31,890 nucleotides of DNA, from positions 1 to 31,890 of IMG/VR virus record IMGVR_UViG_3300028829_002662; one strand, written 5' to 3'. The notes below the pieces were generated by a model. The model was not told the DNA's origin, did no database searches, and saw only the letters and a list, made by a program, of their open reading frames with translations. The translations under genes and the position numbers were made by a program. Positions 17,150-31,890 of this stretch are shown here, piece after piece. Source of the DNA: a virus. The first letter of the stretch is position 1, and every line of letters begins with the position of its first letter.

Positions 17150-17171
17150 GATAAAAATATTGGAGTTGTAA

Positions 17172-19025
17172 ATGTCCCTACAAATAAGGAGAGGTTTGGA
17201 AGCTGATCGTCTTAGCATTACTCCTGATGTAGGCGAGCCTATCTTTACTATAGACACTAGAAGAATTTTTGTTGGTGATGGTGTAACTGCTGGCGGTATC
17301 CTTGTAGGGGATCAGTTAACCAATAGCTACGCCACTTCCACTTTTTCTTCTAATGCTTATCTGCAAGATTCTTTAGCTTTAATACCAACATCCGATGTTA
17401 CAAACACATACCTACAATATTTTGTAAGTCAGGAATTAACAAACTTAGTAGATTCTGCTCCAGAGACATTAGATACTCTTAATGAGTTAGCTGCTGCTCT
17501 AAATGACGATGCAAATTTTTCTACTACCATATCTACATCTATTGGTTTAAGAGCTACCAATACATACGTAAATTCTACTTTTAGTTCCAATTCTTATCTA
17601 CAAGTTTTAGTTAACAACATAAACAATCAGTTGCTTGTAGTAGATGCAGTAACACTGGATGGAATAGATTCAACTGGATTTACAAGCAACAATTATATCC
17701 AAAATAGATTTACTTCTAATAGTTACTTAAACGATAACTTTACCACTAATGGATATATTACTTCTACATTCTCTTCAAATAATTATATAATTAACATTGT
17801 AGATACTAAAGCTACTAACTCTTATGTTAATTCTACCTTTACATCCAACAATTACGTGGACGGTAGATTTGCATCTAATAGCTACATCACTTCTACATTT
17901 AGTGCTAATTCATATTTACAGTCATATGTGTCGTCTGAAATTTCTACACTAGTTGGATCTGCACCTGCAAGTTTAAATTCTCTAGGAGAGCTATCATCAG
18001 CTATCGGTGACGATCCAAGTTTTTCATCTAATGTGACTAATAGATTTGGACTTAGAGCAACTAACACATATGTAAATGATACGTTTAGTTCCAATGCATA
18101 TCTACAAGCACAATTAGCTGCATACGAGCAGGGTGAAGTATCTAACAATTACATTCAGCCAATACTTGATAGCAAAGCAACGAACACATTTGTCATTGGG
18201 ACATTTAGTTCTAATAATTACCTACAATATCAGTTAAATTTGTTTGAGCAAGGCGAAGTATCAAACAACTACTTACAGCCCATACTAGACTCAAAAGCGA
18301 GTAACACTTACGTAAATAATATTGTATCTATTAGAGCAACTAACACATATGTAAATGATACGTTTAGTTCTAACACATATGTGCAAAGCAGATTTGCTCC
18401 CATCACGTATGTAAACTTTACTTTCGGATCAAACAATTACAATAAAGATGTATACACATCGAACAATTATGTGGCTGACTTTTTTGTAACAAACAACTAC
18501 ATTGAAGGAAGATTTAGTTCAAACAGCTATCTTATTAATACGTTTACTACTAATAATTACATTACAACATCATTTGCTCGTAAAGATCAAAACGAAACAT
18601 TCTCTTCAAATGTTATAATAGAAGACACTCTGATTATTGGTTCGGGGAACAACGTCTTTACTAACGTTGTAGATACACAAAGCTACAATAACGTAACTGA
18701 AAAGTTTGAGTTGGAGGGTGTAAGTACTGCTAGTAATACAAGTGCTGTAATTGATACTTACTCACACGGAAGTGAAAAAGTTTCTCTTGAGTACCTTGTT
18801 CATCTAGAAAGAGGAAATGGTGACGAAACACAAGTATCTAAAATACTAGCAACTTACAATGGCGTTTCGAACGTCACATTCTCAGAATATGGACAAATTT
18901 TCACATCTAATGAAGTATTAGGAGATTTATCTGTAGTATATAATGGAGCTAACGTTGAGTTGATTCTTGAGCCATTGGTTCTCTCTAGTTTGAGATCAAA
19001 GGTAGTTAAGACCGTCATAGTATAA
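17172..19025 (+). CDS. Long tail-fibre protein with Mtd-type N-terminus and decapeptide repeats
   Basis: A 617-residue fibre protein. Residues 1-45 (MSLQIRRGLEADRL, then EPIFTIDTRRIFVGDGVTAGG) match the N-terminal domain of major tropism determinant-like and other phage fibre proteins, which attaches the fibre to the tail. The shaft contains two helical-looking blocks (TLDTLNELAAAL near residues 100-112 and a diverged SLNSLGELSSAI block) and an array of 10-residue repeats at about 171-253. Residues 512-617 form a beta-rich C-terminal domain (KILATYNGVSNVTFSEYGQI) that recurs at the end of the next gene. No cysteine-rich or C-type lectin tip is seen. GGAGTTGT lies before the ATG. It is probably a virion adhesin expressed late. 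Confidence 0.8.
   Translation: MSLQIRRGLEADRLSITPDVGEPIFTIDTRRIFVGDGVTAGGILVGDQLTNSYATSTFSSNAYLQDSLALIPTSDVTNTYLQYFVSQELTNLVDSAPETLDTLNELAAALNDDANFSTTISTSIGLRATNTYVNSTFSSNSYLQVLVNNINNQLLVVDAVTLDGIDSTGFTSNNYIQNRFTSNSYLNDNFTTNGYITSTFSSNNYIINIVDTKATNSYVNSTFTSNNYVDGRFASNSYITSTFSANSYLQSYVSSEISTLVGSAPASLNSLGELSSAIGDDPSFSSNVTNRFGLRATNTYVNDTFSSNAYLQAQLAAYEQGEVSNNYIQPILDSKATNTFVIGTFSSNNYLQYQLNLFEQGEVSNNYLQPILDSKASNTYVNNIVSIRATNTYVNDTFSSNTYVQSRFAPITYVNFTFGSNNYNKDVYTSNNYVADFFVTNNYIEGRFSSNSYLINTFTTNNYITTSFARKDQNETFSSNVIIEDTLIIGSGNNVFTNVVDTQSYNNVTEKFELEGVSTASNTSAVIDTYSHGSEKVSLEYLVHLERGNGDETQVSKILATYNGVSNVTFSEYGQIFTSNEVLGDLSVVYNGANVELILEPLVLSSLRSKVVKTVIV
17682..17930 (+). repeat. Decapeptide repeat array in first fibre gene
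   Basis: These 249 bases encode eight near-contiguous units of about 10 residues, each beginning [ST]SNxY and most ending in F (TSNNYIQNRF, TSNSYLNDNF, TTNGYITSTF, SSNNYIINIV and so on), with one 3-residue insertion. The DNA period is 30 bp, but the copies have diverged at silent sites. Single units are scattered through all five long fibre genes, and a second contiguous array begins at 29041. Confidence 0.85.
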
Positions 19026-19028
19026 ATA
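19021..19028 (+). promoter_or_regulatory. T4-type late promoter TATAAATA ahead of second fibre gene
   Basis: An exact TATAAATA overlapping the final codon and stop of the preceding fibre gene. A transcript would start near 19034, leaving a leader of about 17 nt that carries a strong AGGAGG (19040-19045) before the ATG at 19051. Confidence 0.85.
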
Positions 19029-19050
19029 TCTATTACAATAGGAGGATCAA

Positions 19051-20334
19051 ATGGCACGTAGTACATTTCGAATTTTAGACGGTCTTGCAGTTACTGGCGG
19101 TAACGTTGATGTAACCAATACCCTGTCGGCAAACGACTTATCTGGTGATGGTTCCGCCCTTACCAATGTCGATGCTGCTACTCTTGGTGGTGTAGCCAAG
19201 ACCAGTCTTGCATCTAACAACTTTGTAAAGTCTATCTTTACTTCGAATAACTATGTGGACGGAAGATTTGCAGCAAATGCTTATCTTACTTCTACATTCT
19301 CTTCGAATGCTTACATCACAGCACACGTAGCATCAGAAGTCGCTGAATTGGTTGATGCTGCACCAGCAGCTTTAGACACTCTTAATGAGTTGGCTGCTGC
19401 TCTCGGAGATGATGCAAACTTCTCCACCACAATTACTACTTCCATCGGTTTAAGAGCTACCAACACTTATGTAAATGCTACCTTCAGTTCTAACAACTAT
19501 CTGCAGGACACATTAACTCAGTTTGGTTCAGGTAACGTATCCAATAACTATTTAACTGGAACATTTGCATCTAACAACTATGTGCAAACCCAGCTTGGAA
19601 CTAAATTAAATTCATCTTCCTATACAGCTTCTGATGTTCTCTCTAAGTTGTTAACAGTAGATGGCTCTGGGACAAACTTAGATGCAGACAAGTTAGACGG
19701 TCAACAAGGTTCATACTATCTTGACTGGACTAATACTACAAACAGGCCTGACCCTGTAATTACTTTAGGTGGTGATCTATCTGGTTCTGTTACTCTTACT
19801 AATTTAGCAAGCGGAACTCTTACAGCTACTATTCAGCCAAACTCTGTTGCACTTGGCACAGATACAACTGGCAACTATGTAGCAACGATTTCAGGTACTA
19901 CTAACGAAGTAGAAGTCTCTGGTTCTGGTTCCGAAGGTGCTGGAGTAACAGTAGGTCTTCCAAACGATGTTACAATTGGTAATGACCTCACAGTTACTAA
20001 TGATATTATTCAAACGAATCATTCGTTTGTATCTTCTACGATTACTACAACATCTACATCACAGACAAACTTGGATACATTCAGCACTTCTACATATTCT
20101 GGAGCAGAAGTAAATGTTACAGCCATTTCTAATGGTGAGAGACATATGACAAAGATTCTTGTTGTCCATGATGGTACAACAGCACATGCTACTGAGTATG
20201 GTTCTATTTTTACAAATGCATCTTTAGCATCATATGATGTAGATATAAGTTCTGGTAACGTCAGACTTAGAGTTACACCAGCATCTGCAACTTCTACTGT
20301 GTTTAACACTTCTATGATGCTAATTGAAAACTAA
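19051..20334 (+). CDS. Tail-fibre protein with repeat shaft and shared tip domain
   Basis: A 427-residue fibre protein with an excellent ribosome site (AGGAGG, 5-nt gap). The N-terminus (FRILDGLAVTGGNVDVTN) is a common start of marine phage fibre proteins. The shaft has several SNNY decapeptides, one DTLNELAAALGDD block near residue 110 and one LNSSSYTASDVL...DGSGTNLDADKLDG unit near residue 190. Residues about 325-427 form the same C-terminal domain as the previous gene (KILVVHDGTTAHATEYGSIF, then YDVDISSGNVRLRVTPAS), which probably trimerises or binds a receptor. It has its own late promoter. Confidence 0.8.
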   Translation: MARSTFRILDGLAVTGGNVDVTNTLSANDLSGDGSALTNVDAATLGGVAKTSLASNNFVKSIFTSNNYVDGRFAANAYLTSTFSSNAYITAHVASEVAELVDAAPAALDTLNELAAALGDDANFSTTITTSIGLRATNTYVNATFSSNNYLQDTLTQFGSGNVSNNYLTGTFASNNYVQTQLGTKLNSSSYTASDVLSKLLTVDGSGTNLDADKLDGQQGSYYLDWTNTTNRPDPVITLGGDLSGSVTLTNLASGTLTATIQPNSVALGTDTTGNYVATISGTTNEVEVSGSGSEGAGVTVGLPNDVTIGNDLTVTNDIIQTNHSFVSSTITTTSTSQTNLDTFSTSTYSGAEVNVTAISNGERHMTKILVVHDGTTAHATEYGSIFTNASLASYDVDISSGNVRLRVTPASATSTVFNTSMMLIEN

Positions 20335-20346
20335 TGGATAAATTGA

Positions 20347-21021
20347 ATGGCAACTCTGTATGGAGCTTCACTACCTTTAACTGATTTATCATTATCATTA
20401 GATGCTGCTAATCCTAAAAGTTATCCGGGTAGTGGAACAACGTGGAGCGATTTGAGCGGTAATGGTAATCATGCCACTTTTTCTGGTAGTCCGTCTATAT
20501 CTAATGGTGTAATTACCTTTGATGGTACTGATGATTTTGCTACAATTTCTACTAATGGAACTGGGTCTTTAGATTTTTCTAGTGAGCAGACAGTAGTAAT
20601 GTGGTTAAAACACAGCTATACATCAGGTCGTAGAAATCCTTGGGATCAGGCTTATGGTGGGTATGGAACTTGGACCCATGAGCAGGGAAATAATATTAAT
20701 GGTTATTATGGAGATGCTGGAGGTGATGCTCAACCTTATTCGTCAAGTAACTCTGGGACAACAGAAAGAAATGTTTGGAATTGTATAGTCAGGGGAAGAA
20801 ATACTAGTCAAGTATTTTGGTGGCAAAACGGTGAAAGAACTTCGACAGCAACCAATTCCTATGGAACTCTTACAACCACAACTAATAATATTAGAATCGG
20901 AAGAGGATATGCTGGATACTGGATTGGTGAGATGGGTCCGGTGTTAGCATATAAGAGATGTTTGTCTGATGATGAAGTTCTACAGATTTATAATGCTATG
21001 AGAGGGAGATTTGGAAGATGA
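20347..21021 (+). CDS. LamG/concanavalin-like lectin-domain virion protein
   Basis: A 224-residue protein made of essentially one jelly-roll domain. It opens with LSLSLDAANPKSYPGSGTTW and WSDLSGNGNHATFSG, followed by ITFDGTDDFA, a standard LamG-type phage adhesin start. It ends with MGPVLAYKRCLSDDEVLQIY and the tail MRGRFGR. Such domains usually bind glycans or pack as fibre appendages. The ribosome site is weak, so it may be translated by coupling from the previous gene 13 nt upstream. The ATGA overlap with the next gene links the two LamG-type proteins. Confidence 0.8.
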   Translation: MATLYGASLPLTDLSLSLDAANPKSYPGSGTTWSDLSGNGNHATFSGSPSISNGVITFDGTDDFATISTNGTGSLDFSSEQTVVMWLKHSYTSGRRNPWDQAYGGYGTWTHEQGNNINGYYGDAGGDAQPYSSSNSGTTERNVWNCIVRGRNTSQVFWWQNGERTSTATNSYGTLTTTTNNIRIGRGYAGYWIGEMGPVLAYKRCLSDDEVLQIYNAMRGRFGR

Positions 21022-22193
21022 GTCTTCATCATAATCCTAGAATCGTTACTGATGGTTTGGTGTTTGCCTATGACATGGATAATGTTGCTAAATCGTTTAA
21101 AGGTAAGCCTACAACAAATTTAATCACTAGCACTATAGATAACTGGTCTGGAAGCAGTTTGAGAAATGCAACTTTGTTGAACGAGACATACAAACGCTCT
21201 GCTGTTTATAGATTGGAAGTAGCAGCAGGAGCAGACCCAGCAACTAATGTGGATGCTTATTATATGTACAATGTTCCCAATTTGTCTGAGGGAGATGTTT
21301 TTACATTTAGTGCTGACGTTAGGGTTATTCAAAAATCTACTGCCACTTCTCAAACATCGCCTGCTGATAATGGATTTTGGATATGGTTTGCAGGTTCTTC
21401 AGAACATGTTAACTTTAAGGATCTTGAGTTAGGCAAATGGACAAATATACAAGTTACAGCTACGGTGGGATCAACTTATGATTATATTTGGGCAAGAATA
21501 GATCACGATAATAGTATTATTGATATTGCCAACATACAATTAGAGCAGCAACCATTTGCTACACCATTTGTAAATGGCACTAGATCAAACACACAAGCAC
21601 TTTTAGATATGTCCAAGAGTAAAAATACTGTTACTGCTACAAGTTTGACATATCGTCAAGATGATACGCCTACGTTTGATGGAACGGATGATTATCTCAA
21701 TATTGCTCCGCAATCTATTCCCGCAAATTCTAGCTTATCTTTATCAGTTTGGATCAATACTTCTTCAGTGAGTGCAAGTTCTATAATCGAAGCAGAAAAT
21801 TTTGTTGGAGGAAGAACACTTAATGTTCACATACCTTGGTCAGATAATACGGTATATTTTGATTGTGGCGGAGCTAATAGTTCAACATCGTATGATAGAA
21901 TTACATACGCAACAACTGTTGAACAAAGAACTGGTTGGCATAATTGGGTCTTTACAAAAGATATTTCTGCTAATGAAATGAGAATATACGCTGATGGCAA
22001 TCTTGTAGTATTTGCTGGAAATAAAAATATCATTCCAGGTCCAACACAGTTCGCCACTATAGGTTCATATGTAAATGGAGCGTCTAATTTTTATAACGGT
22101 GAAATCTCCCAAGTAAAAATATACGATAGAGCATTAACAGCAGCAGAAATAAAGCAAAACTTTAATGCTACTAGAGGAAGGTTTGGAATCTAA
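21018..22193 (+). CDS. Two-domain carbohydrate-binding and LamG virion protein
   Basis: A 391-residue protein overlapping the previous gene by 4 bases. It begins NPRIVTDGLVFAYDMDN, typical of LamG phage proteins. Residues about 35-190 look like a beta-sandwich carbohydrate-binding module (FTFSADVRVI, WTNIQVTATVG, IANIQLEQQPFATPFV). Residues about 210-391 form a second LamG-like domain (TFDGTDDYLNI, SLSVWINTSS, WHNWVFTKD, ISQVKIYDRALTAAEIKQNF) ending TRGRFGI. The ending is almost the same as that of its neighbour, suggesting duplication with gain of the extra module. Confidence 0.8.
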   Translation: MSLHHNPRIVTDGLVFAYDMDNVAKSFKGKPTTNLITSTIDNWSGSSLRNATLLNETYKRSAVYRLEVAAGADPATNVDAYYMYNVPNLSEGDVFTFSADVRVIQKSTATSQTSPADNGFWIWFAGSSEHVNFKDLELGKWTNIQVTATVGSTYDYIWARIDHDNSIIDIANIQLEQQPFATPFVNGTRSNTQALLDMSKSKNTVTATSLTYRQDDTPTFDGTDDYLNIAPQSIPANSSLSLSVWINTSSVSASSIIEAENFVGGRTLNVHIPWSDNTVYFDCGGANSSTSYDRITYATTVEQRTGWHNWVFTKDISANEMRIYADGNLVVFAGNKNIIPGPTQFATIGSYVNGASNFYNGEISQVKIYDRALTAAEIKQNFNATRGRFGI

Positions 22194-22285
22194 TGGGAGC
22201 AATATCAGACGGTGAGTTGGACCCAAACGGTGAACCTCTTATGGTCGAATATACATTAGATGAATGGAACGATATAAATACTTAA
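22193..22285 (+). CDS. Small acidic protein of 30 residues
   Basis: A 30-codon frame starting at an ATG that shares its A with the preceding stop (TAATG), the same coupling used throughout this operon. It has several acidic residues and begins MGAISDGELDPNGEPLMVEY. AGAGGAAGG lies about 13 nt upstream. The late promoter for the next fibre gene is embedded in its last codons (DINT). I do not recognise a family. It may be a real small virion gene or a remnant; the start coupling favours translation. Confidence 0.5.
   Translation: MGAISDGELDPNGEPLMVEYTLDEWNDINT
22273..22280 (+). promoter_or_regulatory. T4-type late promoter TATAAATA ahead of third fibre gene
   Basis: An exact TATAAATA inside the last codons of the 30-residue ORF. 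The predicted start near 22286 leaves a leader of about 25 nt containing AGGGGA before the ATG at 22311. From here the genes run to 31580 with overlaps or very short gaps. Confidence 0.82.
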
Positions 22286-22310
22286 AAGCTAATCAGGGGA
22301 AAGTGAACCT

Positions 22311-24368
22311 ATGGCGAATAACAAAAAATTTGTTGTTAAGAATGGTCTTACAACAAGTAACATAGAATTTAAAGATGACATTAACAATGGTACTAATACT
22401 ATTACAATGTCTATGCTTTCTACTGATGTACTTTCCTTCAGTGGAGACTCAGGGCAGTTATTCTCCATATCTGATAGCTTAACAGGAACTATTTTTTCCG
22501 TAAATGATATTTCCGGTATCCCTTCTTTAGAAGTTGATGACGATGGAACTATCAGACTAGCAGAGTTTGCTGGTAATATTATAGTAGGATCTAATACAGA
22601 TAATGGAAGTGATAAACTTCAAGTAACTGGCAACACCATTGTTGATGGTACAATTAAAGCTACAGACTTTACTATTGGAACCTCTGGAAAATTAGCATCC
22701 AATAACTTTGTCAAGGCAACCTTTACATCTAATAACTATTTGCAGTCTCTCGGTTACACCACAAATACTGGAGATGTCTCAAACAATTACCTTCAAGGTC
22801 TTGGGTTTACTACTAATGTAGGTGATGTCACCAATACATATCTTACTGCAACATTTAGTTCTAATAATTATCTTCAAGGTCAGTTAAGCACTAAACTAAA
22901 TTCTTCCTCTTATACAGCATCAGATGTTCTTACAAAGATTAAGACAGTAGATGGTTCTGGATCTGGATTGGATGCTGATACTTTGGATGGTCTTCAAGGT
23001 TCTTCTTATGTGTCTAACAATTATGTTGATGGTAGGTTTACTTCTAACACATTTTTAGTAGCAACTTTTACAACCAACAACTACATTCAATCCTATGTCT
23101 CTTCAGAGGTAGCTTCTTTAGTTGATTCAGCCCCTGCTACTTTAGACACTCTTAATGAGCTTGCTGCTGCTCTTGGTGATGATGCTAACTTTGCTACGAC
23201 TGTTTCAACACAAATAGGCATTAGAGCAACCAACACTTATGTAAACTCTACATTTAGTTCTAATAATTATCTACAAGGACTTGGATATACAACAAATACA
23301 GGTGACGTATCTAATAACTATTTACAGTCTCTCGGCTACACTACTAATACTGGAGATGTCTCAAACAATTACCTTCAAGGTCTTGGGTTTACTACTAATG
23401 TAGGTGATGTCACCAATACATATCTTACTGCAACATTTAGTTCCAATAATTATCTTCAAGGTCAGTTAGGTGATAAACTAAATTCTTCTTCTTATACTGC
23501 TTCTGATGTTTTGACGAAAATTAAAACTGTAGATGGTTCTGGATCTGGATTGGATGCTGATACCTTAGATAGCTTACAGGTTACGTCTTTAGTTTCTAAT
23601 AACTACTTCCAAGACAATTCAGGTGGTGGTGATGTAGCAAACTCATATCTTATAGCAACGTTTACCTCTAATAACTATATCCAAACACAGCTTGGAACTA
23701 AACTAAATTCTTCTTCTTATACAGCATCAGATGTTCTTACTAAAATTAAAACTGTAGATGGTTCTGGATCTGGATTAGATGCTGATTTGTTGGATGGTCA
23801 AGAAGCTTCAGCGTTTCAAACTGTAGCTGCTCCAAACGCTCCCAGCATTACCTCTACAACTGTAGTGAACGAAACAATAGAAATGGTATTTGGTCAATCG
23901 TCTACATCTGGTGTTACAAGATATGAAGTATGGAGTGACGGTGCTACTGGTTCTGACTATTCTTTGATTTCTATTATCCCTGCTCAAGATGCTGCTGCGT
24001 CTATGAGTGTAGTTGACCTATCTTTTGATACTGGAGGAACAGTTGCATATCGTGTATATGCTATTAAAAATGGTGTATATTCTACTGCTGCAACTACAAC
24101 CAAATCATTTACGATTCCATCTTTAGATGTCACTAACATGTCTGTCGTGTCCAGTATCACTAATTATGATATACAATACGATCTTCCTGAAACTAGATTT
24201 TTGGACCATATTGAAATTTACAAAGATGCTGAAACGACTTTAGTGGCCTTATCAAGGACTGGTGCAGCTTTGATATACAGCGGATCAAGTGATAATTTCA
24301 CTTATAATGTACCACCTTCAGATAAAGCAAAATATCACCAATTTTGGGTAGAGGTTGTGAGTGTGTAA
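22311..24368 (+). CDS. Long tail-fibre protein with repeat shaft and C-terminal Fn3-like domains
   Basis: A 685-residue fibre protein. The N-terminal domain (KKFVVKNGLTTSN, FSISDSLTGTIFSVNDISG, RLAEFAGNIIVG) is a widespread attachment domain of marine phage fibres. The shaft combines SNNY decapeptides, YTTNTGDVSNNYLQ units, one DTLNELAAALGDD block and three LNSSSYTASDVLTKIK units. A 144-bp direct repeat duplicates part of it. After DLLDGQEASAF the repeat style stops; residues 507-685 look like two small beta-sandwich domains of fibronectin type III kind (TRYEVWSDGATGSDY, VAYRVYAIKNGVYS, LDHIEIYKDAET). These may bind a receptor or carry another fibre. Confidence 0.8.
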   Translation: MANNKKFVVKNGLTTSNIEFKDDINNGTNTITMSMLSTDVLSFSGDSGQLFSISDSLTGTIFSVNDISGIPSLEVDDDGTIRLAEFAGNIIVGSNTDNGSDKLQVTGNTIVDGTIKATDFTIGTSGKLASNNFVKATFTSNNYLQSLGYTTNTGDVSNNYLQGLGFTTNVGDVTNTYLTATFSSNNYLQGQLSTKLNSSSYTASDVLTKIKTVDGSGSGLDADTLDGLQGSSYVSNNYVDGRFTSNTFLVATFTTNNYIQSYVSSEVASLVDSAPATLDTLNELAAALGDDANFATTVSTQIGIRATNTYVNSTFSSNNYLQGLGYTTNTGDVSNNYLQSLGYTTNTGDVSNNYLQGLGFTTNVGDVTNTYLTATFSSNNYLQGQLGDKLNSSSYTASDVLTKIKTVDGSGSGLDADTLDSLQVTSLVSNNYFQDNSGGGDVANSYLIATFTSNNYIQTQLGTKLNSSSYTASDVLTKIKTVDGSGSGLDADLLDGQEASAFQTVAAPNAPSITSTTVVNETIEMVFGQSSTSGVTRYEVWSDGATGSDYSLISIIPAQDAAASMSVVDLSFDTGGTVAYRVYAIKNGVYSTAATTTKSFTIPSLDVTNMSVVSSITNYDIQYDLPETRFLDHIEIYKDAETTLVALSRTGAALIYSGSSDNFTYNVPPSDKAKYHQFWVEVVSV
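22743..22886 (+). repeat. 144-bp direct repeat, copy A (copy B at 23325-23468)
   Basis: The two 144-bp stretches in one fibre gene align without gaps at an offset of 582 bases with only about four mismatches. They encode the same run of YTTNTGDVSNNYLQ and decapeptide units. The flanks are clearly less similar. Confidence 0.9.
23325..23468 (+). repeat. 144-bp direct repeat, copy B
   Basis: Second copy of the repeat at 22743-22886. Recombination between the copies would delete or duplicate exactly 194 codons without changing the reading frame, because the offset of 582 is a multiple of three. Confidence 0.9.
23529..23630 (+). repeat. 102-bp repeat shared between two fibre genes (copy 1 of 3)
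   Basis: This block encodes VDGSGSGLDADTLDSLQV through NNYFQDNSGGG. It is repeated at 26432-26533 and 28073-28174 with at most one difference, in a different gene. All copies end in a GGT tract of different length. Confidence 0.93.
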
Positions 24369-24369
24369 T

Positions 24370-24525
24370 ATGGATGAGACATTAGAACACATGCAACAAA
24401 GATTAGCAGAAGATGAAGAAGCACTTGCTGTTGAAATGGAAATGGAAGAACTAAATGTAGATATGATTATAGTTCTTAAAGATTCTATAAAAAATTATAA
24501 GAAATGTATAGGAGATTTAACTTGA
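24370..24525 (+). CDS. Small acidic, probably helical protein of 51 residues
   Basis: A 51-codon frame with ATG just after the fibre stop (TAATATG). The sequence MDETLEHMQQRLAEDEEAL with the following AVEMEMEELNVDMIIVLK is rich in Glu, Met and Leu with heptad-like spacing, so a helical coil is likely; the end is basic (SIKNYKKC). It overlaps the next gene at TTGA. No family recognised. Its place between two fibre genes suggests an assembly helper or minor structural protein. Confidence 0.6.
   Translation: MDETLEHMQQRLAEDEEALAVEMEMEELNVDMIIVLKDSIKNYKKCIGDLT
24510..24514 (+). promoter_or_regulatory. Ribosome site that selects a TTG start
   Basis: AGGAG lies 7 nt upstream of TTG 24522, which overlaps the preceding stop codon as TTGA. 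The in-frame ATG at 24504 lies ahead of this site and has only weak purines before it. The TTG is therefore the better start for the following gene. Confidence 0.65.
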
Positions 24526-26237
24526 GTGTTGAATCATCAAAGTTATCAAGAAGCAATATTTCGTCAATCACAGGCGCACTATATACCGACGGTAATGGTC
24601 AAAACTCTATTGTTCCTGTTTGGGCAAGAGGAATGGACAACTTAACGACTAACGGTATAGGCGGAGAATATGATGGAGGTGATAGAAATGTTAGTCTCGG
24701 TGCTTATGGTGTAGATGGCGATTTATTGCTTACTGCAGGATGGGGTGATGGCGCTGCTATTCGTAGGTTGAACAACGATGGATCGATGACAAAATTATGG
24801 CATGATAATAATGCTTTATATAGAGATACTGCTTCTACCTACACTCATATAGTTTCGTTGGCATTTCATTCTGGATCAAGTCAGATGTTGTTAATGACAT
24901 ACAACGTCAACGGATATTCGATGGTTGATTACTCAGACCTAAAGACAGGCGGCACAACGGTTACTAATACACGACCTTCTAGTCAATATGTTTTTAGCAA
25001 CGGAGTAAATATAGACACAGCAGGTAGTAGTTACTATTGTGGTGTTGTTACTGCTGGTGATTGGATTTACATTTCAGACAACGCCGCAACTCATTATAAA
25101 AAATATCCTAGAAGACATTGGACTAATGGGACTGAAGAGTTGATAGACGGAACGTCAGCTTCTTACATTTATTCTAGTGGAGGAAATACTGCTGCAACTG
25201 TAGATAGAAACGGATATAGAGCATATTTAGCATACGATGAAATAAATGATCGTGTCTTCTATAACAATTACGTAAACTCTAACTTTATGATGATTGTAGA
25301 TGCTTCAACAGCAAATCCAAAGTGTGTATGGTGTGATTTGGGTGATGCTGGTGTAGGTGATGATGGTTACGAGCAAGGGCTGTTTGTTCCTGATCCTACT
25401 AATTATCCTAATAAAATTTGTATAGGTGGTAGCAGCAGATTTGTATATTGTGATGTGACAAACTGTTTTTCAGGGTCTGCTCCACAAATAATAAGTCAAA
25501 TTTATGTAGAAGATTCTACATATGGAGTTGCGGCATCTGCGCAAGTCAGAAGTGGAACTAAAAAGCAAGACCACACTGCTGCTTGGACCGACAAACTACC
25601 TTCATATCCTACTTTCAATCCTGTTGCCTCGGACAGAAACAAATTTTCGATGGATGGTTGGATGGATTGGGACAATAACAGGATAGTGGGAGCGCTTCAT
25701 CACAATAATATAACAGAAGATACTACTACTGGAGGCAGAGGTAGAAGTTATAGGTCATCATATTCGAATCCAATATTCAGAATGCAGTCAGCTAACGGGA
25801 CATATTGGTGGATTAAAGTTGGTTACAGCGGTGATGGACACACTTTTAAAGTTTGGCCTGATAGTGTTGGTGGAGGTTTGATAGGAAATTGGAGTTGTGA
25901 ATTTGGACCATTTACAATGTCCAATAGTGAAAATATTAATTTTGCTAATATTCTAAAAGAAGACCATTTTGTTCCAAGCAATTGCACTTTAAATTATTAT
26001 GTAAGTAATAATAACGGAAGCACATGGGAATCATATTCTGATGGTGTACATAGTTTTTCAAGCACTGGAAACCAATTAAAGATTAAATATACAGCAACAG
26101 GATTCCCAAACAAGGCACCATATAAAATGTCTACTATTCCTGATTATGTAATGTATGGATCACTTTACTCTGGGGGACTAGATGCTAATATTCCTATGAA
26201 AGTGGTTAGAAATAGAATTAGAGGAAGGAAATTCTAA
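24522..26237 (+). CDS. Large non-repetitive virion adhesin of unknown fold
   Basis: About 571 residues from TTG 24522 (577 from ATG 24504). Unlike its neighbours it has almost no fibre repeats. It is rich in Trp, Tyr, Gly and Asp, with blocks resembling propeller or sandwich strands (GDLLLTAGWGDGAAIRRL, HIVSLAFHSGSSQMLLMTYN, DRVFYNNYVNSNFMMIVD, NKICIGGSSRFVYCD). This could be a beta-propeller-like domain of several blades. The end (NYYVSNNNGSTWESYSDG, then KIKYTATGFP) resembles small carbohydrate-binding sandwich domains. Around nine cysteines are present, unusual for the locus. It terminates NRIRGRKF. I know no family; receptor binding is the likely job from context. Confidence 0.7.
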   Translation: MSVESSKLSRSNISSITGALYTDGNGQNSIVPVWARGMDNLTTNGIGGEYDGGDRNVSLGAYGVDGDLLLTAGWGDGAAIRRLNNDGSMTKLWHDNNALYRDTASTYTHIVSLAFHSGSSQMLLMTYNVNGYSMVDYSDLKTGGTTVTNTRPSSQYVFSNGVNIDTAGSSYYCGVVTAGDWIYISDNAATHYKKYPRRHWTNGTEELIDGTSASYIYSSGGNTAATVDRNGYRAYLAYDEINDRVFYNNYVNSNFMMIVDASTANPKCVWCDLGDAGVGDDGYEQGLFVPDPTNYPNKICIGGSSRFVYCDVTNCFSGSAPQIISQIYVEDSTYGVAASAQVRSGTKKQDHTAAWTDKLPSYPTFNPVASDRNKFSMDGWMDWDNNRIVGALHHNNITEDTTTGGRGRSYRSSYSNPIFRMQSANGTYWWIKVGYSGDGHTFKVWPDSVGGGLIGNWSCEFGPFTMSNSENINFANILKEDHFVPSNCTLNYYVSNNNGSTWESYSDGVHSFSSTGNQLKIKYTATGFPNKAPYKMSTIPDYVMYGSLYSGGLDANIPMKVVRNRIRGRKF

Positions 26238-28348
26238 TGGCAACTGTTACGGGTTCAACTTTAGTACGTGACCTTACTGATTTAACTTCAATATCAACTA
26301 CTGGTAATATTACTGTAGGTGGTACTGTTGATGGTCGTGACGTAGCTACTGATGGATCTAAGCTAGATGGCATTGAAGCAAGTGCAACAGCAGACCAGAC
26401 AGCAGCAGAAATCCTCACTGCCATTAAGACTGTAGATGGTTCTGGATCTGGATTAGATGCTGATACCTTAGATAGCTTACAGGTTACGTCTTTAGTTTCT
26501 AATAACTACTTCCAAGACAATTCAGGTGGTGGTGGTGGTAATGTTTCCAATAGTTATCTCACCTCAACGTTTACCACTAACAATTACGTTGATGGAAGAT
26601 TTACGTCTAATAACTTTGTAAAAGGAATTTTTACTTCTAACAACTATGTCCAAACACAGTTAGGAACAAAGTTAAATTCTTCTTCATATACAGCATCCGA
26701 TGTTCTTACTAAGATCAAAACAGTAGATGGTTCTGGATCTGGATTAGATGCTGATACTTTAGATGGTCTGAATTCAACATCTTTATCATCCAATAACTAT
26801 ATCCAAACACAGTTAGGAACAAAGTTAAATTCTTCTTCCTACACTGCATCAGATGTTTTAACTAAAATCAAAACAGTAGATGGCTCGGGGTCAGGATTAG
26901 ATGCTGATACTTTAGATGGTCTGAATTCAACATCTTTATCATCCAATAACTATCTCCAGAGTCAGTTAAGCACTAAACTAAATTCTTCTTCTTATACAGC
27001 ATCAGATGTTCTTACTAAAATTAAAACAGTAGATGGTTCTGGATCTGGCTTAGATGCTGATACCTTAGATGGTCTTCAAGGTTCTTCTTATTCATCTAAC
27101 AATTACATTATTAATCACTACACATCTAATAACTACATTCAAACATTTGTAGCTGCAGAAGTGGCTAGTATTGTGGACTCAGCACCTGCAGCACTTGATA
27201 CACTAAACGAACTTGCTGCTGCTCTTGGTGATGATGCTAACTTCTCTACTACTGTGTCAAACCAAATTGGAATTAGATCTACAAACACTTATGTAAACTC
27301 TACATTTAGTTCTAACAACTACCTCCAGAGTCAGTTAAGCACTAAACTAAATTCTTCTTCTTATACTGCTGCAGATGTTCTTAATAAGATTAAGACGGTA
27401 GATGGTTCTGGATCTGGCTTAGATGCTGATACCTTGGATGGTTTGAACTCAACATCCTTATCATCTAATAACTATGTTCAGACCCAGCTTGGAACAAAGT
27501 TAAATTCTTCCTCTTATACAGCATCAGATGTTCTGACTAAAATTAAGACTGTAGATGGATCAGGATCAGGTCTAGATGCAGATACTTTAGATGGCCTTCA
27601 AGGTTCTTCTTATTCCTCTAATAACTATATTACTAATCACTATGCATCTAACAACTATATTCAAACATATGTATCTTCTCAAGTAGCTAGTGTTGTGGAC
27701 TCAGCACCAGCAGCTCTTGATACTCTTAATGAGCTTGCTGCTGCTCTTGGTGATGATGCTAACTTCTCCACTACAGTGTCTAATCAAATAGGCATTCGAT
27801 CGACCAACACTTATGTTAACTCTACATTTAGTTCTAACAACTACCTTCAAGGTCAGTTAGGAACAAAGTTAAATTCTTCTTCCTACACTGCATCAGATGT
27901 TTTAACTAAAATTAAAACAGTAGATGGCTCGGGGTCAGGATTAGATGCTGACTTGTTAGACGGTCTTCAAGGTTCCTCTTATTCATCCAATAACTATATC
28001 CAAACACAGCTTGGAACTAAACTAAATTCTTCTTCCTACACTGCATCAGATGTTTTAACTAAAATTAAAACAGTAGATGGTTCTGGATCTGGATTGGATG
28101 CTGATACCTTAGATAGCTTACAGGTTACGTCTTTAGTTTCTAATAACTACTTCCAAGACAATTCAGGTGGTGGTGGTGGTGGTGCTACTGGTGGTGGCTC
28201 TGATGAAATTTTCTATGAGAACGATCAAACAGTAACAACAAACTACACATTAACGACAAACAAAAACGCTATGTCGGCTGGTCCTATTACTGTCAACGGC
28301 GGCGTTACAGTAACCATTCCATCCGGCGCATCTTGGACGGTAGTATAA
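26237..28348 (+). CDS. Long repeat-rich tail-fibre protein
   Basis: A 703-residue fibre coupled to the previous gene by TAATG. The N-terminus (LVRDLTDLTSISTTGNITVG, GTVDGRDVATDGSKLDGIEA) is a common fibre start. The rest is a concatenation of seven full and one partial LNSSSYTASDVLTKIKTVDG units with GSGLDADTLDGL, two DTLNELAAALGDD blocks and SNNY decapeptides. It ends with a Gly hinge and a compact C-terminal domain (FYENDQTVTTNYTLTTNKNA, then ITVNGGVTVTIPSGASWTVV), which I recall as a common ending of marine phage fibre proteins. The 102-bp repeat occurs at both ends of the repeat region. Confidence 0.82.
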   Translation: MATVTGSTLVRDLTDLTSISTTGNITVGGTVDGRDVATDGSKLDGIEASATADQTAAEILTAIKTVDGSGSGLDADTLDSLQVTSLVSNNYFQDNSGGGGGNVSNSYLTSTFTTNNYVDGRFTSNNFVKGIFTSNNYVQTQLGTKLNSSSYTASDVLTKIKTVDGSGSGLDADTLDGLNSTSLSSNNYIQTQLGTKLNSSSYTASDVLTKIKTVDGSGSGLDADTLDGLNSTSLSSNNYLQSQLSTKLNSSSYTASDVLTKIKTVDGSGSGLDADTLDGLQGSSYSSNNYIINHYTSNNYIQTFVAAEVASIVDSAPAALDTLNELAAALGDDANFSTTVSNQIGIRSTNTYVNSTFSSNNYLQSQLSTKLNSSSYTAADVLNKIKTVDGSGSGLDADTLDGLNSTSLSSNNYVQTQLGTKLNSSSYTASDVLTKIKTVDGSGSGLDADTLDGLQGSSYSSNNYITNHYASNNYIQTYVSSQVASVVDSAPAALDTLNELAAALGDDANFSTTVSNQIGIRSTNTYVNSTFSSNNYLQGQLGTKLNSSSYTASDVLTKIKTVDGSGSGLDADLLDGLQGSSYSSNNYIQTQLGTKLNSSSYTASDVLTKIKTVDGSGSGLDADTLDSLQVTSLVSNNYFQDNSGGGGGGATGGGSDEIFYENDQTVTTNYTLTTNKNAMSAGPITVNGGVTVTIPSGASWTVV
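26432..26533 (+). repeat. 102-bp repeat shared between two fibre genes (copy 2 of 3)
   Basis: Matches 23529-23630 and 28073-28174. It is followed by a GGT tract that encodes five Gly in total here, against three in copy 1 and six in copy 3. Confidence 0.93.
26664..28139 (+). repeat. Coding repeat array, LNSSSYTASDVL type, seven units
   Basis: Units begin near 26664, 26824, 26973, 27347, 27506, 27872 and 28021, spaced about 150-160 bp, or about 370 bp where a DTLNELAAAL block is inserted. Neighbouring and distant units share long identical tracts, for example 26814-26906 against 27857-27949, which differ at only one or two bases. Confidence 0.9.
28073..28174 (+). repeat. 102-bp repeat shared between two fibre genes (copy 3 of 3)
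   Basis: Third copy of the block, at the end of the shaft of the 26237-28348 gene. Its GGT tract encodes six consecutive Gly and joins directly to the C-terminal domain. Confidence 0.93.
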
Positions 28349-28752
28349 TGAGCACATTAAAAGTAACGGCAATAAAAAATGCTTCTTCGTCAGCTAACAA
28401 CTTGGTTTTTAATAGTGACGGCACACTTGATGATCCTGTGGGTAATGTTAGAACCCCTCGTAGGACAGCTATAACCACAGCTACATCTATTGCCAATGAA
28501 GGAGTATATTACTGTACCAATGCACCTACCCTTACTTTGGGAGCACCAGCAGACGGTTCAGTAATGACAATCTATAATAATAACGCAAGTTCTATGACTC
28601 TGAACAGAGGTTCGACTGTTTCTACAATGAGAAAGGGTGCTGACAATGATACTACCAATAATACTTCACTTACTCTCGGGGCATATTCGACCACTACGAT
28701 AACTATGTTTCAGGCTGTGTTTGCATTAGTAACAGGAACGGACGTAAGTTAA
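28348..28752 (+). CDS. Short free-standing fibre tip-domain protein
   Basis: A 134-residue protein whose ATG shares its A with the preceding stop (TAATG); an upstream TTG in the fibre gene is unlikely. It starts STLKVTAIKN, typical of small marine phage fibre proteins. The rest is a beta-rich domain (VRTPRRTAITTATSIANEGV, LTLGAPADGSVMTIYNNN, MRKGADNDTTNNTSLTLGAY) ending TGTDVS. The same domain is fused to the C-terminus of the long fibre at 28954-30348 (ending TGTDVT), so this may be a separate-subunit version of that tip. Confidence 0.75.
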   Translation: MSTLKVTAIKNASSSANNLVFNSDGTLDDPVGNVRTPRRTAITTATSIANEGVYYCTNAPTLTLGAPADGSVMTIYNNNASSMTLNRGSTVSTMRKGADNDTTNNTSLTLGAYSTTTITMFQAVFALVTGTDVS

Positions 28753-28754
28753 TT

Positions 28755-28979
28755 ATGAGATTCAGAGTACAGAAATCAAAAAAACACCAAGCGTGGCTGG
28801 TGCTTCAAAACTGTAATGACATCATAGTTGCTGGCTTTGATAAAGCTAAATATGCACATAGAACAAAAAACTTCCTAAATAGTGGTGGAGCATTTGATGG
28901 ATTTTTTCCTTCATTCTTTTGCACGGAAGTAGAAATATTCGACGGGGAACCAAATGTCGGTAAACAAGAATCTCAGTAA
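28755..28979 (+). CDS. Small basic protein of unknown function between fibre genes
   Basis: A 74-residue protein, ATG 28755, two bases after the previous stop, overlapping the next fibre gene by 26 bases in another frame. It starts with a basic segment (MRFRVQKSKKHQAWLVL), then NDIIVAGFDKAKYAHRTKNF and an aromatic stretch (FDGFFPSFFCTEVEIF). It has none of the fibre repeats. I recognise no family; the compact alpha/beta look and context would fit a small accessory or chaperone protein. Confidence 0.65.
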   Translation: MRFRVQKSKKHQAWLVLQNCNDIIVAGFDKAKYAHRTKNFLNSGGAFDGFFPSFFCTEVEIFDGEPNVGKQESQ

Positions 28980-30348
28980 GTTAGCTTTAAACGTTAACAC
29001 GAATGGTGATGTCACAGATGACGGTTTAGCCGTAGCTTATACATCTAATGCTTATGCACAAGAAACATTCGCATCTAATAGTTTTGTAAAAGCAACATTT
29101 ACGTCAAATAACTATTCCCAAGGAAGATTCGCTTCTAACAATTTTGTTAAATCAAATTTTACCTCCAACAACTATGTTGAGGGTGAACTTAATACGAGAT
29201 TGGGTATAAGAGCAACAAACACTTATGTTCAGTCTACGTTTACGTCAAACACATACGCACAAGATTTCTTTACTAATGCGAGCAACATCACGTCTGGCAC
29301 TCTGGCGTCAGGTAGACTTTCTGGTACTTACTCAATTAATATTTCTGGATCTGCTGACAGACTTGATGGTAAAGATTCTGTAGATTTTGCGTCAAATACT
29401 TATATTGAATCTAAAAACTTTTCTTCTAATAGTTACATTCAAGGAAGATTTACGTCTAACAACTTCGCTAAGTCTTTGTTTTCGTCAAATAACTATGTTC
29501 AAACACAACTCGGCTTAAAACTAAATTCTTCTTCTTATACTGCATCAGATGTTCTTACTAAGATCAAAACAGTAGATGGCTCGGGGTCAGGATTAGATGC
29601 TGACTTGTTGGATGGCAAAAACAGCACGTTATATACTACAAATACTTATATTGAATCTAAAAACTTTTCTTCTAATAGTTACATTCAAGGAAGATTTACG
29701 TCTAACAACTTCGCTAAGTCTTTGTTTTCGTCAAATAACTATGTTCAAACACAGCTTGGAACTAAACTAAATTCTTCATCTTACACGGCTGCAGATGTTT
29801 TAACCAAGATTAAAACTGTAGACGGTGTAGGATCAGGTCTAGATGCTGACTTGTTGGATGGCAAAAATAGCACGTTATATACTACAAATAATTATATTCA
29901 GACATTTACTCAATCAACATTTGTAGCAAACAACAATGTTATAACGGTCGATACAGTAAATAATAGAATAGGTATTGGTGATTCGTCACCAAGCACAGAA
30001 CTTGAGGTAAGCGGAACAATTACCGACGATGTTAGTGCTGTCAGAACCCCAAGACATACTTCACTCAGCGCTGATACGACCATAACAAATGAAGGTGTTT
30101 ATATACTACAAACTGGCGTATCAATAATTACTTTAGGCGCTTCTGCCGTTGGAACAGTTATGGCAGTATATAATAACGTGAACGGCACCGTCACACTAGA
30201 GGATGGTTCAACAGTAACATCTATGAGACGTGGTGCTGACAATGATACTACTCATAACAATACCTTGACATTAGGAGCTAGGTCCATGACTACAATAACG
30301 TGGATTGATAGTAACGCAGTTGTAGTAACAGGAACGGATGTTACATAA
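28954..30348 (+). CDS. Long tail-fibre protein with decapeptide array and tip domain
   Basis: A 464-residue fibre. Residues 30-79 are five consecutive decapeptides (TSNAYAQETF, ASNSFVKATF, TSNNYSQGRF and so on). NITSGTLASGRLSG and SADRLDGKDSVDFASN follow, then two nearly identical modules of SNNY and LNSSSYTASDVL/LDADLLDGKNSTLY units. VDTVNNRIGIGDSSPSTELE leads into the C-terminal domain (residues about 360-464) shared with the 28348-28752 protein. A 115-bp perfect repeat lies in the two modules. The gene ends in the TAATG coupling to a tail-collar-like gene. Confidence 0.8.
   Translation: MSVNKNLSKLALNVNTNGDVTDDGLAVAYTSNAYAQETFASNSFVKATFTSNNYSQGRFASNNFVKSNFTSNNYVEGELNTRLGIRATNTYVQSTFTSNTYAQDFFTNASNITSGTLASGRLSGTYSINISGSADRLDGKDSVDFASNTYIESKNFSSNSYIQGRFTSNNFAKSLFSSNNYVQTQLGLKLNSSSYTASDVLTKIKTVDGSGSGLDADLLDGKNSTLYTTNTYIESKNFSSNSYIQGRFTSNNFAKSLFSSNNYVQTQLGTKLNSSSYTAADVLTKIKTVDGVGSGLDADLLDGKNSTLYTTNNYIQTFTQSTFVANNNVITVDTVNNRIGIGDSSPSTELEVSGTITDDVSAVRTPRHTSLSADTTITNEGVYILQTGVSIITLGASAVGTVMAVYNNVNGTVTLEDGSTVTSMRRGADNDTTHNNTLTLGARSMTTITWIDSNAVVVTGTDVT
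29393..29507 (+). repeat. 115-bp perfect direct repeat, copy A (copy B at 29639-29753)
   Basis: Identical over 115 bases at an offset of 246 bases (82 codons). The DNA on the 3' side, although coding for the same kind of unit, differs at many silent sites, so identity ends abruptly. Confidence 0.94.
29639..29753 (+). repeat. 115-bp perfect direct repeat, copy B
   Basis: Second copy of 29393-29507. The abrupt change from identical to diverged sequence points to a recent conversion or crossover confined to this block. Confidence 0.94.
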
Positions 30349-30791
30349 TGAGTTCAATTCTGCTTGCAGCAACTAATTTTTTTGGCGGTGAAGCTTTTGA
30401 GGCTGGAACAGCAATGTTGTTTAATATGTCTACTGCCCCCACTGGTTGGACTAAGGACACCACATATGACAATAGGGCATTTAGAGTAATAACAGGCACT
30501 ATTGGAGTAGGTGGCAATAGAGACTTTACAACAGCATTTGCATCATCTATGGCTGTAAATTCAACAACCATTACCACTTCAACAATGGGTAATCACAACC
30601 ACGGTCGTCCCACTAATCGGACTGACGACAATCAAAACAGTGGCGGTGGCAGCAATGGTGGTTCTACTGGTTCTGCCACCACTGTTGGTACATTTATAAG
30701 TGATACTACTGGTAATAGTGGTTCTCATGATCACACTTTAAGTATGCAAGTTACGTATGTTGATACTATTATAGCATCGAAGGCGGCTTAA
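30348..30791 (+). CDS. Tail-collar-like fibre tip protein, first of three paralogues
   Basis: A 147-residue protein coupled by TAATG. The pattern GTAMLFNMSTAPTGWTKDTT, AFRVITGTIGVGGNRDF, GNHNHGRP and GSHDHTLSMQVTYVDTIIASK is that of phage tail-collar and fibre-tip domains. The two HxH pairs (HNH and HDH) are the kind that bind metal ions in T4 gp12 and gp37 trimers. The loop between them is Gly/Ser/Asn-rich and may be the variable, receptor-facing part. Two further paralogues follow. Extra N-terminal residues (SSILLAATNFFGGEAF) are unique to this copy. Confidence 0.82.
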   Translation: MSSILLAATNFFGGEAFEAGTAMLFNMSTAPTGWTKDTTYDNRAFRVITGTIGVGGNRDFTTAFASSMAVNSTTITTSTMGNHNHGRPTNRTDDNQNSGGGSNGGSTGSATTVGTFISDTTGNSGSHDHTLSMQVTYVDTIIASKAA

Positions 30792-30792
30792 T

Positions 30793-31194
30793 ATGTCAGA
30801 ATTTGCAACTGGAGTTATTCAAGTGTTTCAGCAAACTTCTGCTCCTACGGGATGGACTAAGCTGACCACACATAACGATAAAGCTATAAGACTTGTTTCG
30901 GGTAATGTCGGAACGGGCGGTAATGCAAACTTTACAGGTAGTTTTGGGGCTTCAATATCTACTAGCGGAAGAACACTTACGACAAACCAAATACCTTCAC
31001 ACACCCACAACTGGGCGTCACTTAGACAGAACAGTGGAACATCAAACTTAGTTTATGTAGGGGGTTTAGGAAATAATACTGGTGCTGTTGCTACTAACAA
31101 TGATGGAAGCAATAGCCCTACTGGTGGATCCCACTCGCATGGTATAAATATGCAGGTTCAATACGTCGATTGTATTCTGGCGGAGAAAGACTAA
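30793..31194 (+). CDS. Tail-collar-like fibre tip protein, second paralogue
   Basis: A 133-residue protein, ATG one base after the previous stop. It shares QQTSAPTGWTKLTTHNDKAI, RLVSGNVGTGGNANF, PSHTHNW and GGSHSHGINMQVQYVDCILA with the copies on either side. The middle loop (RQNSGTSNLVYVGGLGNNTG) is not conserved among the three. A TATAAATA octamer lies in its codons for GINM. It probably forms a trimeric metal-binding tip. Confidence 0.82.
   Translation: MSEFATGVIQVFQQTSAPTGWTKLTTHNDKAIRLVSGNVGTGGNANFTGSFGASISTSGRTLTTNQIPSHTHNWASLRQNSGTSNLVYVGGLGNNTGAVATNNDGSNSPTGGSHSHGINMQVQYVDCILAEKD
31143..31150 (+). promoter_or_regulatory. Possible late promoter TATAAATA inside the second collar gene
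   Basis: An exact octamer 44 nt before the ATG at 31194, in codons for GINM. The first paralogue has SMQV and the third IDFSV at this place, so the octamer is not forced by a fully conserved protein sequence. It could give extra late expression of the last genes, or be chance. Confidence 0.4.
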
Positions 31195-31580
31195 TGGTTG
31201 ATGCAGGAACACTACAAGTATTTTACCAGACTGCTGCTCCTACGGGATGGACTAAAGGTACTTCACATGACAACAAAGCACTAAGGCTTGTTTCAGGTAC
31301 TGCTTCTTCTGGTGGAACTAACACTTTCACTGGTACATTTACAAACAGAAGCGTTGATAATTTTAGCTTAACTAAATCAACAGTTCCTTCTCACAATCAC
31401 AACTTTACATGGAAGACTTCCAAAACTTTCGGAACTGCAACAAATTCTGCTATGGGAACGAACAATACGGATAGCTTTCAGAATGCAAATATAGGTGGAG
31501 CTGGTAGTGGTAGTGGTCACAGTCACGGTATTGACTTTTCTGTGAGATATGTTGATGTTATTATAGCTTCGAAGGACTAA
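31194..31580 (+). CDS. Tail-collar-like fibre tip protein, third paralogue
   Basis: A 128-residue protein; the ATG shares its A with the previous stop and has GGAGA upstream. An in-frame non-ATG start 24 nt earlier lies ahead of this site. It keeps YQTAAPTGWTKGTSHDNKAL, RLVSGTASSGG, PSHNHNF and GSGHSHGIDFSVRYVDVII, with its own middle loop. It ends ASKD and is followed by a duplicated copy of its own 3' end. Confidence 0.82.
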   Translation: MVDAGTLQVFYQTAAPTGWTKGTSHDNKALRLVSGTASSGGTNTFTGTFTNRSVDNFSLTKSTVPSHNHNFTWKTSKTFGTATNSAMGTNNTDSFQNANIGGAGSGSGHSHGIDFSVRYVDVIIASKD

Positions 31581-31684
31581 TAAAATGCTAATAGATAGAA
31601 ATAGTGTTGACCTTCATTTAAAAGATGTTGATATTATTATAGCTTTAAAGGATTAATAAAATGTCAATAGATAGAAATAGAGTT
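31551..31684 (+). repeat. Tandem duplication of a gene junction, period 76 bp
   Basis: 31551-31608 and 31627-31684 are similar copies of the same junction: the 3' end of the collar gene, the spacer TAATAAAATG, and the first codons of the next gene (ATAGATAGAAATAG). They differ at scattered bases only, at a constant offset of 76. Confidence 0.85.
31585..31656 (+). pseudogene. 23-codon hybrid ORF created by the junction duplication
   Basis: A complete frame of 23 codons. Its first residues (MLIDRNSV) copy the start of the next gene (MSIDRNRV) and its last residues (DVDIIIALKD) copy the end of the previous collar protein (DVIIASKD). It is best explained as a remnant of a tandem duplication that joined the start of one gene to the end of the other. 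The frame, start and stop are intact, so translation is possible, but a function is doubtful. Confidence 0.7.
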
Positions 31685-31890
31685 ACTTTGATCATTGAAG
31701 ATGGAACAATAATCAATGATGGAATGGTTTTTACCGAACTAGATTTTTCTAGTGTTGAATTTCCTACCAATGTACGTGTTGTTCAATGGAACGGAACATC
31801 CGGTGAGATTGAATTCAGTGACGGCTCTATGAACGAACAGATTTCAGAGCTTCCCTCTTATGTAAATCAGTGTGTAGCTTTACATACAGA
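31661..31890 (+). CDS. Fibre-associated small protein, N-terminal part (runs off the window)
   Basis: ATG 31661 opens a frame that reaches the right edge (76 codons seen). MSIDRNRVTLIIEDGTIIND, then VRVVQWNGTSGEIEF and ISELPSYVNQCVALHT resemble a small protein family often found just after fibre genes in marine and other tailed phages, with the pattern V-Q-W...G-IE...L.....V. Its role is unknown; a fibre assembly helper is plausible from position. AAAGGA lies upstream. Confidence 0.65.
   Translation, partial: MSIDRNRVTLIIEDGTIINDGMVFTELDFSSVEFPTNVRVVQWNGTSGEIEFSDGSMNEQISELPSYVNQCVALHT

Follow-up and report, generated by a model that had tools for sequence, protein, structure and literature searches.

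A modular adhesin island in an uncultured marine T4-like myovirus, probably diversified by exchange between phages, change in unit number and intragenomic conversion

In T-even phages, the adhesins of the distal tail fibres are swapped by recombination at conserved repeated motifs, which exchanges the variable host-recognition segments (Tetart, Desplats and Krisch 1998, PMID 9737921; Trojet et al. 2011; as cited in PMC3797505 and PMC6027323). There, the motifs are glycine-rich stretches flanking the hypervariable segments of the gp38 adhesin. This swapping is the closest precedent for the locus reported here, an adhesin island in a 31,890-base fragment of an uncultured, marine, T4-like myovirus (IMGVR_UViG_3300028829_002662, positions 1 to 31,890; WIN in pairwise labels). 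The whole fragment is called the window. As in the T-even phages, variable recognition segments are carried on conserved repeated motifs, and the window junctions at 19653 and 23013, as well as a break between the related contigs G001 and L154, lie in fibre shafts. Unlike in the T-even phages, the motifs are long shafts, i.e., decapeptide, LNSSS, and DTL elements, found across several genes of a ~12-gene island by gp41-thyX, and conversion was seen among genes within a single genome. No gp37/gp38 family was named among the Pfam and PHROG matches of the island fibres, so the island works like T-even swapping and is at most a possible member of that system.

In pelagimyophages and cyanomyophages, the host recognition cluster lies between VrlC and gp14, and major-tropism-determinant and concanavalin-A-type domains occur among the structural proteins (PMC7029224). 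The present island is similar, as it is hypervariable between relatives, has a conserved core beside it, and carries adhesin domains. However, in the window and its relatives it follows gp41-thyX, not VrlC/gp14. In metaviromic islands, described by read recruitment, the genes that set apart marine phages of otherwise similar content are those for tail fibres and carbohydrate binding (PMC3909814). Adhesin-type genes are the variable part in both cases, whereas recombination junctions and shared shaft DNA lie outside the scope of that study. Receptor-binding protein domain mosaicism was reported as recent tail-fibre domain shuffling at the level of protein profiles, with the genetic process left open (PMC10684548), whereas DNA junctions were resolved for the window island.

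With a probability of about 0.82, the locus is a multi-gene adhesin island whose modular fibres were diversified by exchange between phages, by change in unit number, and by intragenomic conversion. The island starts at 17172, 3' of gp41-thyX, and all its genes are on the plus strand. It runs past the window end, as the fibre and tip genes of G001 extend ~2.7 kb beyond the matching point. Of 14 island open reading frames (ORFs), ~12 encode fibres, lectins or tips, and the exceptions are 28755-28979 and the chaperone start at 31661. The count of about fifteen fibre or tip genes in the preliminary description was slightly high. Five long fibres of 617, 427, 685, 703, and 464 amino acids (aa) were assigned to ORFs 17172, 19051, 22311, 26237, and 28954. 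The remaining genes encode two LamG lectins, a 577-aa protein, a short tip protein, three collar-type tips with HxH motifs, an assembly chaperone, and a 74-aa protein.

Relatives were searched by scanning IMG/VR with ThyX, the 74-aa protein, ORF24504, ORF19051, LamG, a collar tip, and UvsX. The haplotypes in the same slot were G001, L154, L091/L012/L010, L103/L093, L019/L020, L014/L013/L015, L022/L021, L018, and G002 (a 119-kb contig). Identity to the window was 98% in the backbone for G001, 99.8% downstream of 29639 for L154, and about 90% for L091/L012/L010. Close relatives were collinear up to ThyX, and their islands were massively different. The replication genes thus keep their order while gene content and repeat number differ, as had been anticipated from the window. 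The end of ThyX is a recurrent left breakpoint, i.e., at 17147 between the window and G001, and at 17165 between the window and L103. In its last 15 codons, the ThyX C-terminus of G001 (IVSRKVPIVSKWLNST) was like that of L103 and unlike that of the otherwise 98% identical window, which indicates that the left exchange extended into thyX. In L014 and L022, the same slot contained almost no shaft (1-2% of bases).

Chimeric fibres were observed directly in these comparisons. The window and G001 were 98% identical to 17147, after which 5.9 kb of the window stood against ~0.4 kb of G001. The 5.9-kb stretch spans four genes plus the N-terminal portion of ORF22311. Homology restarts at 23013, inside the ORF22311 shaft, and this fibre has a different N-terminus in G001. 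In L103/L093, the tip of ORF19051 was found on a 1021-aa fibre with another N-terminus, the junction being at 19653, and the N-terminus of ORF22311 (to 22642) leads to a different shaft and tip. The N-module MSVNKNLSKLAL was joined to six different C-terminal modules over eight haplotypes, a count that left out the G001 N-terminus at 10688, which clustered with MSVNKNLSK only through shaft residues. The module MSTLRLYGDTSGY carried different tips in G001 and L154, although the two shared 97.8% identity as far as the break, which lies where the decapeptide shaft begins. L091 and L103 had a common tip (96% nucleotide identity) on different N-termini. Paralogous tips within one genome showed 62-69% DNA identity, and no tip recently moved between genes of one genome was seen among the compared contigs. 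The swapped tips and N-termini come from other phages rather than from another place in the same genome, and the idea of a within-genome library of tips was not borne out.

The shafts are built from three elements. The decapeptide was present in all five long fibres, the DTLNELAAAL-type block in four (none in ORF28954), and the LNSSSYTA[S/A]DVL unit in four (none in ORF17172). The preliminary description, in which all five fibres shared the same three elements, therefore holds for the decapeptide only. Its thirteen unit copies over four genes were recovered, i.e., one in ORF19051, three in ORF22311, seven in ORF26237, and two in ORF28954, provided that both variants are counted (11 with S and two with A). 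The repeat offsets of 582 and 246 were also confirmed. However, their being multiples of three adds no evidence, because this is automatic for in-frame coding repeats. The DTL block is widespread, and occurs by sequence in the solved gp4 tail collar fibre (9d93) and gp68 upper fibre (6v8i), which are single fibres of other phage groups, unlike the array here, and in many actinophage tail proteins.

At the DNA level, 1345 repeated 24-mers were counted in the island, against none in the 17-kb backbone and none in Markov resamples. When synonymous codons were shuffled inside the five fibres, the mean was 10. Repeated 40-mers numbered 650 against 0 after synonymous-codon shuffling, and the longest repeat was 115 nt against <=38. 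This excess of 40-mers and of repeat length over the synonymous shuffles indicates a DNA identity of the shafts beyond what protein conservation can account for. Repeats with an exact match over 98-116 nt were located at 22764/23346, at 29393/29639 (115), and in L091. G001 (98%) had few long exact repeats between its fibres, the longest being 37.

A change in copy number was observed for the 246-bp unit of ORF28954, which stands in tandem in two copies at 29393..29884 of the window, in one copy in L154 (99.8% flank), and in one copy in G001. The single G001 copy is a hybrid, copy 1 at its start and copy 2 at its end, with the switch within ~14 identical bases. In ORF26237, seven LNSSS units and two DTL blocks were found, against three units and a single block, differently ordered, in its orthologue from G001. 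A conversion tract was also observed, as 23529-23631 (ORF22311) and 28073-28175 (ORF26237) are identical over 103 nt, and a third window site near 26432-26534 is one base off. The orthologous G001 sites matched at 86/103 (with a 9-nt gap; orthologue of 23529-23631) and 95/103, whereas the window paralogues matched at 102-103/103. The flanks of the two window sites are only 64% and 48% alike. Because the paralogues are closer than the orthologues and the edges are sharp, conversion or copying between fibre genes occurred after the split from G001. Together with the hybrid copy, the changes in copy number and the conversion tract indicate that the repeats themselves paired or slipped.

The location of the joins was examined in 16 distinct junctions, a small, hand-picked set restricted to the ends of syntenic blocks. 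Seven were in shafts (expected share ~0.30, P=0.18), five at gene edges (expected 0.13, P=0.047), four at borders of N- or C-modules, and none inside a unique tip. Shafts and gene edges taken together accounted for 12/16, against 43% expected (P=0.01). A breakpoint test over all BLAST pieces gave strong shaft enrichment and was dropped, as hits between paralogous repeats necessarily have their ends in shafts. The shafts are thus one site of exchange among others, with gene edges and conserved N-modules used about as often. The proposal that shafts serve as homology arms is consequently kept in part. Junctions in the shafts of chimeric fibres and the intragenomic shaft exchange agree with it, but the count above and the nearly shaftless islands of L014 and L022 do not make shafts the main arms.

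A most likely mechanism can be proposed from these observations. Each long fibre would consist of an N-terminal attachment module, a repetitive shaft, and a C-terminal tip. Co-infecting related phages would swap blocks by homologous or short-homology recombination, at whatever homology the T4 system finds, with joins in shafts, at the ends of conserved N-modules, and at gene edges, by which chimeric fibres and exchanged lectin genes would be produced. Tandem shaft units that lie in frame would, by unequal exchange or slippage, shift fibre length by whole units. Gene conversion between the shafts of different fibre genes in the same genome would keep stretches of their DNA alike, and this likeness would preserve homology for both exchange between phages and change in unit number. 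The presence of UvsX, UvsY, and gp46-47 suggests that they carry out the joining, and domain types such as LamG, Mtd_N, and the HxH tips suggest that the tips set host range. Selection for working modules would remove joins inside tips, and the absence of joins in tip interiors can be due to it.

The main competitor is that recombination is random and only joins sparing shafts and tips survive, the repeats being non-causal in the swaps between phages. It is reasonable to consider this as possible, though clearly the less probable account, since gene edges and module borders took as many joins as the shafts did, and the entire island was replaced in L014 and L022, where shaft sequence is nearly absent. 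However, the changes in unit number, the hybrid repeat, and the converted tract require pairing or slippage of repeats, and the shaft DNA identity exceeds the protein constraint. The opposite extreme is a built-in library, a contingency system for host range in which the phage often and actively swaps tips among its own fibre genes through the shafts. The shared shaft DNA, the conversion between ORF22311 and ORF26237, the several tips per genome, and a complete T4-type recombination set would fit it. It is nevertheless very unlikely, as the distance between paralogous tips and the lack of a recent move argue against it, as does the longest inter-fibre exact repeat in G001, which indicates that homology is not maintained in every lineage. 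At >=99% identity, moreover, nearly all compared contigs keep their structure. Four groups of near-identical contigs (six pairs, 99.0-99.8%) showed no large structural change, against what a fast, built-in process would lead one to expect. L103/L093 were 99.8% identical over 11.6 kb with no gap and the same structure. L091/L012 were 99.4% identical over 9.4 kb with two gap positions, and the structure of L091/L012/L010 (99.4-99.7%) was the same. Structure was also kept in L091/L010, L014/L013, L014/L015, and L019/L020, the island overlap being only ~1 kb for L013 and L020. The window and L154 gave the only unit change seen at >99% identity. Rapid programmed switching is thus argued against, and the island is an evolutionary mosaic produced by recombination rather than a built-in switch that acts fast.

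An assembly artefact, in which repeats produced collapsed copies and chimeric contigs, is quite unlikely. The data are metagenome contigs with the long exact repeats listed above, but the same structures were found in separate contigs of slightly different strains from other samples, so the chimeras are no assembly accidents, and ~14 identical bases at the hybrid switch of G001 would not suffice for k-mer collapse. Programmed variation by a diversity-generating retroelement (DGR) or an invertase is extremely improbable. The Mtd_N domain on ORF17172 might recall such variation, since Mtd is the DGR target in Bordetella phage BPP-1, but Mtd_N is a common attachment domain. No reverse transcriptase or template/variable repeat was recognized among the window ORFs examined, no DNA invertase or recombinase was recognized in the window, and its inverted repeats were only two weak pairs of 21-23 nt. 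The DGR and invertase readings were rejected on these grounds. Several points weigh against diversification by exchange, unit change, and conversion itself. The shaft enrichment by itself is weak, selection against broken tips would yield the same pattern of joins with no shaft preference, and near-identical pairs are almost always collinear. The contigs all come from metagenomes, probably sequenced as short reads, and the copy number of identical repeats of >100 nt, such as the 115-nt pair, could be misassembled in single cases, e.g., L154.

Gene by gene, the island begins with long fibre 1 (17172..19025), which has an Mtd_N N-terminal domain (Pfam, 2.9e-8), a decapeptide shaft, two DTLNELAAAL-type blocks, and a unique C-terminal domain. 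Long fibre 2 (19051..20334) has one LNSSS unit and one DTL block, and its C-terminal domain is the one on another N-terminus in L103/L093. Two LamG/ConA-like lectins follow at 20347..21021 (Laminin_G_3, 5.5e-10) and 21018..22193 (Laminin_G_3, 5.5e-21). Among relatives, the first ~35 aa and the last ~25 aa of the second lectin are conserved, and the middle is variable. Long fibre 3 (22311..24368) has three LNSSS units, a DTL block, and a 582-bp internal repeat, and it is common with L103 up to 22642 and with G001 from 23013. The 577-aa protein (24504..26237), with neither shaft nor family match, showed 92% identity in G001 and 47-49% in other viral contigs. Long fibre 4 (26237..28348) ends in tip module C2, which was also found on several other N-termini. 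The short tip protein (28333..28752) has a C3 module and is a paralogue of the ORF28954 tip (62% nucleotide identity). Long fibre 5 (28954..30348) carries the N-module MSVNKNLSKLAL. The three collar-type tip proteins are at 30348..30791, 30793..31194, and 31170..31580, and the second belongs to a family whose sequence resembles the solved tail-fibre tips 9qgo and 9nxk. The tail-fibre assembly chaperone (31661..31890) is cut by the window end, and its G001 homologue matched Phage_tail_APC (Pfam, 1.2e-15). In structure predictions, ORF24504 and one collar tip gave a predicted local distance difference test (pLDDT) score of 33 and 52, respectively, too low for a fold search.

The 74-aa protein (28755..28979) is a conserved marker of the island; it is not recognizable as an adhesin and has no PHROG match and no match among phage records. 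It was located directly 5' of the MSVNKNLSK-type fibre in six haplotypes besides the window, L022/L021 being an exception. It is perhaps a small chaperone or regulator.

The genes 5' of the island encode gp19, UvsY, UvsW, gp55, gp47, gp46, clamp, clamp loader, RegA, Hsp20, polymerase, UvsX, gp41, and ThyX, among which clamp loader, RegA, and Hsp20 were named from gene order and sequence only. Family matches for gp19, UvsW, gp46, gp47, clamp, polymerase, UvsX, UvsY, gp55, and gp41 identify the phage as a T4-like myovirus. The recombination functions noted earlier are all encoded on the plus strand, i.e., the UvsY mediator at 1371..1811 (PF11056, 1.1e-26), the gp47 and gp46 nuclease at 3725..6492 (gp47 3725-4780, gp46 4780-6492; PHROGs 100 and 77), and the UvsX recombinase at 14095..15120 (PHROG 97, 3.3e-82), together with UvsW. 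All of these are T4 core genes and general in T4-like phages. The conserved left flank consists of a gp41-type DnaB helicase (15117..16487, plus strand), which was identified by tblastn to cyanomyophage gp41 and is collinear in relatives, and the ThyX thymidylate synthase (16487..17149, plus strand; Pfam Thy1, 4.2e-41), the left anchor of the island. The closest gp41 proteins were those of cyanomyophages (58%). No phage record matched the island DNA, and the search for a host among GTDB genomes found no relatives of the helicase. The core is mosaic too, as contig 3300017752_004579 (L018/L181) shared 98% identity with the window in UvsX, 68% in gp41, and 91% in ThyX.

Other genes were seen around the slot in relatives. 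After ThyX, L022:5788-9278 and L018:12814-15713 contained non-fibre genes, by eye like 2OG-Fe(II) oxygenases and others. In G001 (L176:1332-3025) and G002 (L177:19405-21122), three small secreted- or lipoprotein-looking proteins with no convincing family match were placed 3' of the island, possibly akin to the curli-like cluster of pelagimyophages. G002 (L251:12878-19399, L252:2-1699) also has another decapeptide fibre, 3' of a large, baseplate-like protein of 2174 aa that is VrlC-like by eye and 5' of the tail sheath, which indicates that the same shaft is in use at two distant loci.

Tail-fibre mosaicism is well known, but its DNA steps are rarely caught. The island offers a comparison at 98-99.8% identity in which fibre length changes by a whole unit, one repeat copy is a hybrid, and a tract has been converted between two different fibre genes, and near-identical contigs bound the rate of rearrangement. 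The new points are the shaft DNA common to several genes and the conversion among fibre genes. Contigs assembled from short reads call for caution in islands of this kind, and with long reads it becomes testable whether fibre repeats are purely structural or also exchange points. It is rather unlikely that the likeness of shaft DNA is itself selected, with conversion maintaining a multi-gene adhesin array whose shafts act as exchange points. If true, recombination, whether with co-infecting phages or among the phage's own genes, would give viable new fibres at a raised frequency.

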